This document shows positions 11,872-14,773 of a stretch of DNA of 43,263 nt, one piece after another. Where the stretch lies: contig PAYR01000004.1 in the NCBI GenBank assembly GCA_002715345.1, positions 42,098 to 85,360 of the forward strand, in the 5' to 3' direction. Origin of the DNA: Flavobacteriales bacterium. Lineage in GTDB: Bacteria; Bacteroidota; Bacteroidia; Flavobacteriales; UBA7312. Numbering within the stretch: the first letter of the stretch is position 1; each line of letters opens with the position of its first letter. Below the pieces are notes generated by a model. The model searched no databases, was not told where the DNA came from, and was given only the letters and a program-made list of their open reading frames with translations. The translations under genes and the position numbers were made by a program.

Positions 11872-12819
11872 ATGGGTATTTTCGGATTTTTTTCCAAGGA
11901 TAAAAAAGACAAGCTAGATAAGGGTTTAGAAAAAACCAAAGAAAATGTATTTGGCAAATTATCTCGTGCGGTTGCAGGTAAATCTAAGGTAGATGAGGAG
12001 TCTTTGGATGATATAGAAGAAGCGCTTATCACCTCTGATATAGGGGTAGAGACCACTCTTAAAATTATTGAAAAACTAGAAAATCGTGTTGCTTCTGATA
12101 AGTACTTAAACATTACAGAACTTAATGCGTTTTTAAAAGAAGAGATAGCTGAACTTCTGGAAGATAGTTATGCAAATGCTGAAGAATTTGTGTTGCCGGA
12201 TGTTGATGGTCCGTATGTAATCATGGTGGTTGGAGTAAATGGGGTAGGAAAGACAACTACTATTGGTAAGTTAGCTCATCAATTCAAGCAATCCGGAAAG
12301 AAAGTTGTGTTAGGAGCTGCTGATACATTTCGTGCTGCTGCTGTAGATCAGTTGGTTATATGGGCTGAAAGAGTGGGGGTGGATATTGTCAAGCAAGAGA
12401 TGGGTTCGGATCCTGCATCCGTATGCTTTGATACTCTACAATCTGCTAACGCTAATAATGCTGATGTAGTTATTATTGATACAGCTGGTCGATTACATAA
12501 CAAAGTGAACTTGATGAATGAGTTGTCCAAAATTCGCAATGTAATGGCTAAAGTTATTTCTAGTGCTCCGCATGATGTAATGTTGGTGTTAGACGCTTCT
12601 ACAGGACAAAATGCCATTGAGCAAGCCAAGCAGTTTACAAAAGCTACTGAGGTAGATTCATTAGCACTTACTAAGCTAGATGGAACGGCTAAAGGAGGGG
12701 TGGTGATAGGTATTTCTGATCAATTTAAGATTCCGGTTCGTTACATTGGTGTAGGGGAAGGAATGGAAGATTTGCAAGTTTTTAATAAACACGAATTTAT
12801 CGATTCATTATTCAACTAA
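11872..12819 (+). CDS. ftsY: Signal recognition particle receptor FtsY
   Basis: A GTPase that docks the SRP-ribosome complex at the inner membrane. The NG domain is complete: G1 VVGVNGVGKTTTIGKLA (residues 119-135), DTFRAAAVDQL, DTAGRLHNK, TKLDGTAKGGV and the C-terminal YIGVGEGMEDLQVF. I chose ATG 11872 (MGIFGFFSKDKKDK, 315 aa); the in-frame TTG at 11836 falls in a terminator hairpin. The N-terminal region is short and amphipathic rather than a long acidic A domain. The stop overlaps the ATG of the next gene (TAATG), so mini-rimO and bshC are translationally coupled to it. The partner GTPase Ffh is encoded at 24290. Confidence 0.97.
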   Translation: MGIFGFFSKDKKDKLDKGLEKTKENVFGKLSRAVAGKSKVDEESLDDIEEALITSDIGVETTLKIIEKLENRVASDKYLNITELNAFLKEEIAELLEDSYANAEEFVLPDVDGPYVIMVVGVNGVGKTTTIGKLAHQFKQSGKKVVLGAADTFRAAAVDQLVIWAERVGVDIVKQEMGSDPASVCFDTLQSANANNADVVIIDTAGRLHNKVNLMNELSKIRNVMAKVISSAPHDVMLVLDASTGQNAIEQAKQFTKATEVDSLALTKLDGTAKGGVVIGISDQFKIPVRYIGVGEGMEDLQVFNKHEFIDSLFN

Positions 12820-13250
12820 TGCGTACTAGGTCTCTCAAGAAAAATAAAATCAATGTTATCACATTAGGGTGTTCTAAAAACATTTACGATTCGGAAGTGT
12901 TGATGGGGCAACTCAAGGCAAATAACATGGAAGTGGAACACGAATCTGAAAAGGATGATTCGAACATTGTGGTGGTTAATACCTGTGGATTTATTGATAA
13001 TGCTAAAGAAGAGTCTATCAATACCATTTTGGAACAAGCGCAAAGAAAAGAAGGGGGTGAAATTGATAAACTTTTTGTTACAGGCTGTCTTTCGGAAAGA
13101 TACAAACCAGATTTAGAAAAAGAAATGCCTAATGTAGATAACGAAGTGCTAGTAAAAACTGATGACACTTACATTCGTATGGGTGATTTTTCACAAATAA
13201 AAATTACACATGCAGATCATTACGATTTGTATGGAGAGTTAGTTGAATGA
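12819..13250 (+). pseudogene. rimO: Internally deleted RimO (ribosomal protein S12 methylthiotransferase): N-domain fused to TRAM end
   Basis: A 143-aa open frame. Residues 1-103 match the N-terminal methylthiotransferase domain (UPF0004) of Bacteroidota RimO: TLGCSKNIYDSEVLMGQL, VVNTCGFIDNAKEES and VTGCLSERYKPDLE, with all three auxiliary-cluster cysteines (C18, C56, C90). From about residue 104 the sequence PNVDNEVLVK...YIRMGDFSQIKITHADHYDLYGELVE matches not the radical-SAM domain that should follow, but the last 35-40 residues of the C-terminal TRAM domain. About 290 residues, including the CxxxCxxC radical-SAM site, are missing, yet the frame is kept. Normal RimO is about 430 aa. It cannot carry out radical methylthiolation. 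It overlaps ftsY (TAATG) and bshC (ATGA). It may be a decayed gene, an expressed small Fe-S protein, or an assembly join at a short repeat. Confidence 0.85.
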
Positions 13251-14773
13251 AGCAAAAGTTCTCATATCATCAAACAAAAAAGTTCACTCACTTAGTGAAT
13301 GATTACTTATCGAACTCAGATGATATCCATAACTTTTACAATCGTTACCCTTCTTTAGAAAACTTCTCAGCTCAATGGGAAGAGAAATCCAATCATAAGA
13401 TAGATAGAAAGACGCTGGTTGAGGTATTGAATGATCAAAACCAAGCATTAACTCTGTCTCCACTAACAAAATATAATATCAATTCCTTGTTAAAGGAAGA
13501 TACATTTTCAGTTACAACAGGGCATCAATTGTGCTTGTTTACAGGTCCTTTATATTTTGTGTATAAGATAATTTCTACAATCAACTTGGTAGAAGAGTTA
13601 AAGGAAAAATATCCAGAAAATAATTTTGTTCCAGTTTTTTGGATGGCTTCAGAGGATCATGATTTTTATGAAGTGAATCATATTCATCTTTTTGGTAAAA
13701 AAATAGAGTGGAATAGCGGTCAAAAAGGAGCAGTAGGCCGCATGTCTTTGGAAGGTGTTGAATCTGTTTTGTATGACTTAGATAAGTTGCTTGGAGCTGG
13801 TGAAAATGCTAATCATTTATCTCTTTTGTTTAGAAATGCGTATTTGAATCATGATAACTTGGCAGATGCGAGTCGTTTCCTTGTAAATGCTCTTTTTGGA
13901 AAATATGGTTTAGTTATACTAGACGGAGATGATATTCGCTTGAAAAAGCAGTTCATATCCATTATTAAAAAAGATGTGCTTTTTCAAGGTTTTTTTGAGA
14001 CGATTTCAAAATGTACTCAAGACTTAGCTAAAGAATATAAAACACAAGCTTTTGTGCGGGATATAAATTTTTTCCATTTATCTGATGGAGGTAGAAAGCA
14101 TTTGGAAGGAGAGGTGTTAGAAAGCGAGATAGATTCATATCCAGAAAACTTCAGTCCAAATGTATTGATGCGCCCTTTGTATCAAGAGATGCTGCTGCCA
14201 AACTTGGCTTATGTAGGAGGTGCTGCAGAAGTGGCTTACTGGATGCAGTTAAAAACAACATTTGAACAAGAACAGATACCATTCCCAATTTTAGTATTAA
14301 GAAGCTCAATTCTTTGGATGGAGCAAAAGCAAGTTAATAAGTGGCAAAATCTAGGCTTTGATTTAGCGGATTTATTTTTAGATGAACATCAGCTTCATCA
14401 ACAATATGTAGGTAGGCATACAAATTTGAATTTAACTCAAGAGTTGACAGGTTTGAAGAAAGTGTTTGAACAAATATTATCTAAAACAACTGATAAAGGG
14501 CTGCAAACATCGGTTTTGGCAGAACAGCAAAAACAACTGAATTCGTTTGAAAAACTAGAGAAGAAGTTGTTAAAATCAGAAAAGAAAAAGCATGAGGATG
14601 CTTTGAATCAAATAACACAGCTAAAAGCAAAGCTCTTTCCAAATAATAGTTTGCAAGAGCGTTATGATAACTTCATTCCTTTTTATTTAAAACATGGGGA
14701 AAACTTTATAGAAATACTTCAAAAAGAATTAAGCCCACTGGATGCTAAATTTGTAATTTTGAGCCCACAATAA
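13247..14773 (+). CDS. bshC: Bacillithiol biosynthesis cysteine-adding enzyme BshC
   Basis: A 508-aa protein with the BshC signatures VTTGHQLCLFTGPLYFVYK, PVFWMASEDHDFYEVNH and GGAAEVAYWMQL, plus a Lys-rich coiled coil near residues 430-470 (KKLLKSEKKKHEDALNQI). BshC is assigned to the last step of bacillithiol synthesis, adding cysteine to glucosaminyl-malate. Its presence suggests that this organism makes bacillithiol as a low-molecular-weight thiol; bshA and bshB are not in the window. The start codon overlaps the stop of mini-rimO (ATGA), so its translation probably depends on ribosomes finishing that frame. Confidence 0.93.
   Translation: MKQKFSYHQTKKFTHLVNDYLSNSDDIHNFYNRYPSLENFSAQWEEKSNHKIDRKTLVEVLNDQNQALTLSPLTKYNINSLLKEDTFSVTTGHQLCLFTGPLYFVYKIISTINLVEELKEKYPENNFVPVFWMASEDHDFYEVNHIHLFGKKIEWNSGQKGAVGRMSLEGVESVLYDLDKLLGAGENANHLSLLFRNAYLNHDNLADASRFLVNALFGKYGLVILDGDDIRLKKQFISIIKKDVLFQGFFETISKCTQDLAKEYKTQAFVRDINFFHLSDGGRKHLEGEVLESEIDSYPENFSPNVLMRPLYQEMLLPNLAYVGGAAEVAYWMQLKTTFEQEQIPFPILVLRSSILWMEQKQVNKWQNLGFDLADLFLDEHQLHQQYVGRHTNLNLTQELTGLKKVFEQILSKTTDKGLQTSVLAEQQKQLNSFEKLEKKLLKSEKKKHEDALNQITQLKAKLFPNNSLQERYDNFIPFYLKHGENFIEILQKELSPLDAKFVILSPQ

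Follow-up and report, generated by a model that had tools for sequence, protein, structure and literature searches.

A rimO remnant without its radical-SAM core in a Flavobacteriales bacterium, and a parallel loss in a second genus

We identified a remnant of rimO from which the radical-SAM core has been deleted in frame. The remnant is an open reading frame of 143 aa at positions 12819-13250 on the plus strand of the window (the whole 43,263-nucleotide stretch of DNA that was analyzed), and its assignment is based on the open frame, HMM matches and alignment. RimO carries out the beta-methylthiolation of ribosomal protein uS12. The remnant represents an early stage of gene loss rather than a new protein, and it is very probable that it is young and arose through one 882-nt in-frame deletion between short direct repeats in a dispensable gene. 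Gene loss is seen just after its first step, in two genera with near-identical breakpoints, where one remnant is still open and the other, older one has decayed.

Domain content of the remnant and the missing core

The remnant consists of RimO residues 1-107 fused in frame to the final ~36 residues of the TRAM domain. The N-terminal part (12819-13139, plus strand) matches the Pfam UPF0004 HMM over remnant residues 10-107 (1.6e-24), and the domain ends approximately 28 residues early. The published domain sizes are ~135 residues for UPF0004, ~235 for the radical-SAM domain and ~60 for TRAM (PMC5352715). The C-terminal part (13140-13247, plus strand) corresponds to TRAM_2 positions ~27-63 of 63 by HMM and alignment. 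The TRAM_2 HMM match itself extends over residues 103-142 and covers profile positions 25-63 of 63 only (1.8e-9), so that the complete TRAM domain required of RimO is not present. The radical-SAM domain with its CxxxCxxC motif, which RimO also requires, is absent as well. The RimO model TIGR01125 matches the remnant at profile positions 1-91 and 395-432, leaving positions 92-394 unmatched, and the score of 105.7 bits falls under the curated cut-off of 356.95 bits.

The cysteine pattern that we used for RimO is a UPF0004 domain with CysX35-36CysX32-33Cys. All three N-domain cysteines pointed out in the initial annotation are kept in the remnant: C18 (codon 12870-12872), C56 (12984-12986) and C90 (13086-13088), all on the plus strand, with spacings of 37 and 33 residues. 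The predicted structure of the remnant is weak, with a mean pLDDT of 61 and values below 50 at residues 105-122, which span the junction.

The window's own assembly (G000) is a 1.21-Mb metagenome-type draft of 47 contigs that is ~60% complete. The sole other genome of the genus (G001) encodes an intact RimO of 436 aa following ftsY, to which the N part of the remnant is 93% identical and the C part ~80%. The gene is also intact in six further genomes of the same family (G002, G003, G004, G005, G007 and G008), and in all seven relatives the intact orthologue occupies the same locus. Compared with these, the remnant has lost exactly 882 nt (294 codons). The lost segment begins inside the N-domain sequence PNVD or directly behind it and ends at the matching point of PDVDNEV in TRAM. 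In G008 the rimO frame is intact, while many N within coding sequence (G008:C5:80000-90000, L018) depress its apparent identity. No rimO was found in G006, but the true ftsY is also absent from that 66%-complete assembly.

Alignment to the Thermotoga RimO of known structure (4jc0) indicates that the lost segment comprises the end of UPF0004, the whole radical-SAM domain with CxxxCxxC and the start of TRAM. The initial annotation had proposed from the letters alone that about 290 residues were gone and that the end of TRAM directly followed the N domain. The count of 294 codons against the intact G001 protein agrees with the first proposal and the TRAM_2 match with the second, and alignment to full-length RimO places the breakpoint at PNVD and the VDNEV of TRAM, as it had supposed. 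Methylthiotransferase chemistry is impossible without the radical-SAM cluster (PMC5352715), and the remnant cannot be a methylthiotransferase.

The deletion junction and a parallel loss in another genus

The join (13128-13139, plus strand) sits in a 12-bp imperfect direct repeat, CCTAATGTAGAT / CCAGATGTWGAT, whose copies are exactly 882 nt apart in intact relatives. There the N-side site is CCTAATGTAGA(T/C) and the TRAM-side site is CCAGATGT(A/T)GAT, and the N-domain copy encodes PNVD, the TRAM copy PDVD. The window junction reads CCTAATGTAGATAACGAAG, which is a single repeat copy followed by TRAM sequence. Similar sequences therefore flank both breakpoints and one copy is left at the join, which bears out the earlier suggestion of a deletion between short look-alike stretches. 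In G008 the sites share an exact match of 8 nt (ATGTAGAT), and the 14-mer pair ranks among the top 23 of 500,500 in the gene. In G001 the corresponding 14-mer pair matches at 10 of 14 positions, and 437 pairs in the gene are equal or better. Judged by these rankings the direct repeat is only moderately strong, and as it is not the best in the G001 gene, repeats alone do not account in full for breakage at a single site in two lineages.

A second remnant occurs in G009, a genome of the same family and another genus. Here both ends of rimO are present and the core is gone, between intact ftsY and bshC genes (G009:C2:65497-65909, minus strand; L017:5500-5920). This copy carries a one-base deletion near codon 10, a Cys18 to Tyr change, a frameshift at the junction and in-frame stops in the TRAM part, and from these lesions it is plainly a pseudogene. 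Its breakpoints are ~10 bp or less from those of G000. The junction is CCTAACTCTTAGATAATGAAG and allows two readings: a deletion ~10 bp from that of the window with a small deletion afterward, or one identical to that of the window with a local change afterward.

The closeness of the breakpoints could suggest a single deletion common to both genomes through ancestry or exchange, a reading that we regard as scarcely credible. In trees based on nucleotide alignments the G000 remnant groups with the intact copy of G001 (support 98-100), whereas that of G009 falls among the intact copies of G005, G007 and G008 (85), and the ftsY tree agrees. The G000 remnant is 91.8% identical to G001 and that of G009 is ~90% identical to G005 and G008, but the identity between the two remnants is only 73%. 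The junction bases also differ (CCTAATGTAGAT in G000 vs CCTAACTCTTAGAT in G009). We rejected a shared ancestral deletion on the tree and the junction sequence. Since each remnant groups with the intact copies of its own genus, the core losses in G000 and G009 are, on this phylogenetic evidence, independent events.

The parallel loss also bears on whether the deletion in the window is real. An assembly or binning artefact, in which rimO is complete in the population and 882 bp of it were left out in assembly, would fit a metagenome-type draft of 47 contigs at ~60% completeness whose sister genome G001 is intact. However, the exact match between the two sites is no longer than 8 bases in relatives, far below usual assembler k-mers, and the flanking ftsY and bshC genes are intact. 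In addition, the same segment is gone in the unrelated G009 assembly, where the remnant has decayed. We therefore consider an artefact unlikely, although the deletion in G000 might belong to a minority strain or be an error.

A single deletion between the two 12-bp look-alikes (the PNVD and PDVD codons) would have removed in frame the 882 nt that include the radical-SAM domain. The most likely route would be replication slippage or single-strand annealing, and the event is probably recent.

Neighboring genes, selection and the loss of RimO function

The remnant lies between two intact genes on the plus strand, ftsY (11872-12819) and bshC (13247-14773). The ftsY gene adjoins rimO upstream in every relative whose region was read. 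The start of bshC overlaps the stop of the remnant (ATGA), in G000 only. The initial annotation had described the TAATG junction with ftsY and the ATGA junction with bshC as intact; both are indeed present, but overlap with bshC is not conserved among RimO genes. In the loci read from other relatives that have bshC the gap between rimO and bshC is at least ~140 bp, and in G001 bshC is not near rimO. Unrelated genes on the opposite strand follow rimO in place of bshC in G001 (L016:3977-7222), which suggests that the order ftsY-rimO-bshC was broken there by rearrangement. A gene start near the same locus (L016:7679-7999) resembles microbial rhodopsin by eye.

The frame of the G000 remnant is fully open, with no stops and no excess of amino-acid changes on its branch. 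Polarized changes on this branch comprise 5 synonymous and 4-5 replacement changes in the remnant, with 7 and 8 in ftsY. On the G001 branch the corresponding part of the intact rimO shows 6 synonymous and 7 replacement changes, with 13 and 6 in ftsY. The ratio of remnant to ftsY branch length is about equal in the two genomes. From these counts the remnant is not evolving faster. With so few changes counted, a deletion too recent to show an effect and some or weak constraint would fit equally.

The lack of acceleration, with a remnant/ftsY ratio alike in G000 and the intact G001, could also be expected of a retained mini-protein with a function of its own, such as an Fe-S protein, one that binds uS12, or a leader ORF through which translation of ftsY and bshC is coupled. 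The open frame, the three cluster cysteines and the overlap of the remnant stop with the bshC start would agree with such a role, which is nevertheless quite improbable. The UPF0004 domain is truncated and the first ~24 positions of TRAM are missing, the structural model averages a pLDDT of 61 and drops below 50 over the junction, and the nearly identical deletion product of G009 is a dead gene. Nor is the bshC overlap conserved, and a degenerate junction pattern searched in 398 genomes of the order has no match in the 397 others. In a wider collection of genome contigs the pattern had one match, in Paraburkholderia, which was rejected as chance, with no RimO sequence in the single frame translated. 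In its fullest form, the proposal would be that the in-frame deletion joined the RimO cluster domain to the end of TRAM in a 143-aa fusion that was retained as a small protein, for example a three-cysteine Fe-S protein still binding uS12 or a translated linker that couples expression of ftsY and bshC, and that such a fusion had earlier arisen once in the other genus and then decayed; this we consider very improbable.

Among the alternatives raised in the initial annotation, a recent and tolerated deletion is therefore the best supported. An assembly collapse is unlikely because an independent, decayed deletion exists at the same place in G009. Nothing speaks positively for an Fe-S or ribosome-binding protein: neither domain is complete, the structure is poorly predicted and the parallel copy in G009 is dead. 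The reason offered there for keeping the frame, translational coupling to bshC, would depend on an overlap that occurs in G000 alone.

The missing core was sought across the ~60%-complete G000 assembly, which yielded only MiaB and no second rimO. The MiaB gene (G000:C36:3036-4292) is intact and scores 430.6 bits against a TIGR01574 cut-off of 355.3, so it was rejected as a replacement for rimO. The search for a second intact copy that had been proposed earlier thus returned none, but in an assembly of this completeness. In G009 the same search found a MiaB-like frame and another methylthiotransferase-type frame of 445 aa, with 29-35% identity to the RimO core. The search for a second rimO covered assemblies that are 60-65% complete (G000 and G009), and RimO adjoins ftsY in every relative read. 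The uS12 gene rpsL is absent from both assemblies.

We infer that uS12 methylthiolation by RimO has been lost in G000, given that the remnant lacks the SAM-binding CxxxCxxC domain and that the search returned no second copy. Such a loss would be tolerated, since the gene is dispensable. In E. coli, a rimO mutant has a wild-type generation time while S12 thiomethylation is absent (PMC10002905).

Distribution in the order and relation to known systems

Of 298 sampled genomes of the order, 213 match the RimO N domain strongly; the 85 without a strong match include some incomplete or tiny endosymbiont-sized genomes. On these counts, loss of rimO seems to be common in the order. One genome without a strong match (G020) is a single contig that is 99% complete. 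Among the ~165 rimO matches listed for the sample, the frame is too short to contain the core only in G000 and G009. The frame in G229 is 365 aa, but a contig end is near it. In the same sample, no listed member of family f7 has a strong RimO N-domain match. A search of the literature on rimO gene loss in Flavobacteriales found no paper.

On a small scale, the two remnants offer a natural test of the part that short repeats play in directing gene loss, and of whether free-living bacteria with small genomes can dispense with uS12 methylthiolation. They are a natural example of repeated loss at one place, and are otherwise ordinary. Caution is also warranted, as automatic annotation may call such a stub 'RimO'.

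The remnant shares with RimO (TIGR01125; solved structure 4jc0) the N-terminal UPF0004 domain with its three cysteines, the end of TRAM and the position following ftsY. However, the radical-SAM domain is missing from it, as are the end of UPF0004 and the beginning of TRAM. MiaB (TIGR01574) belongs to the same superfamily as RimO and has the same domain order, but the MiaB of G000 is intact and clearly MiaB, unlike the rimO remnant. The remnant resembles bacterial gene remnants and pseudogenes that result from deletion between short direct repeats (slippage or single-strand annealing), given the join within an imperfect repeat, the dispensable gene and the decayed parallel in a relative. In contrast to these, the frame in G000 happens to stay open and further decay is not yet visible.
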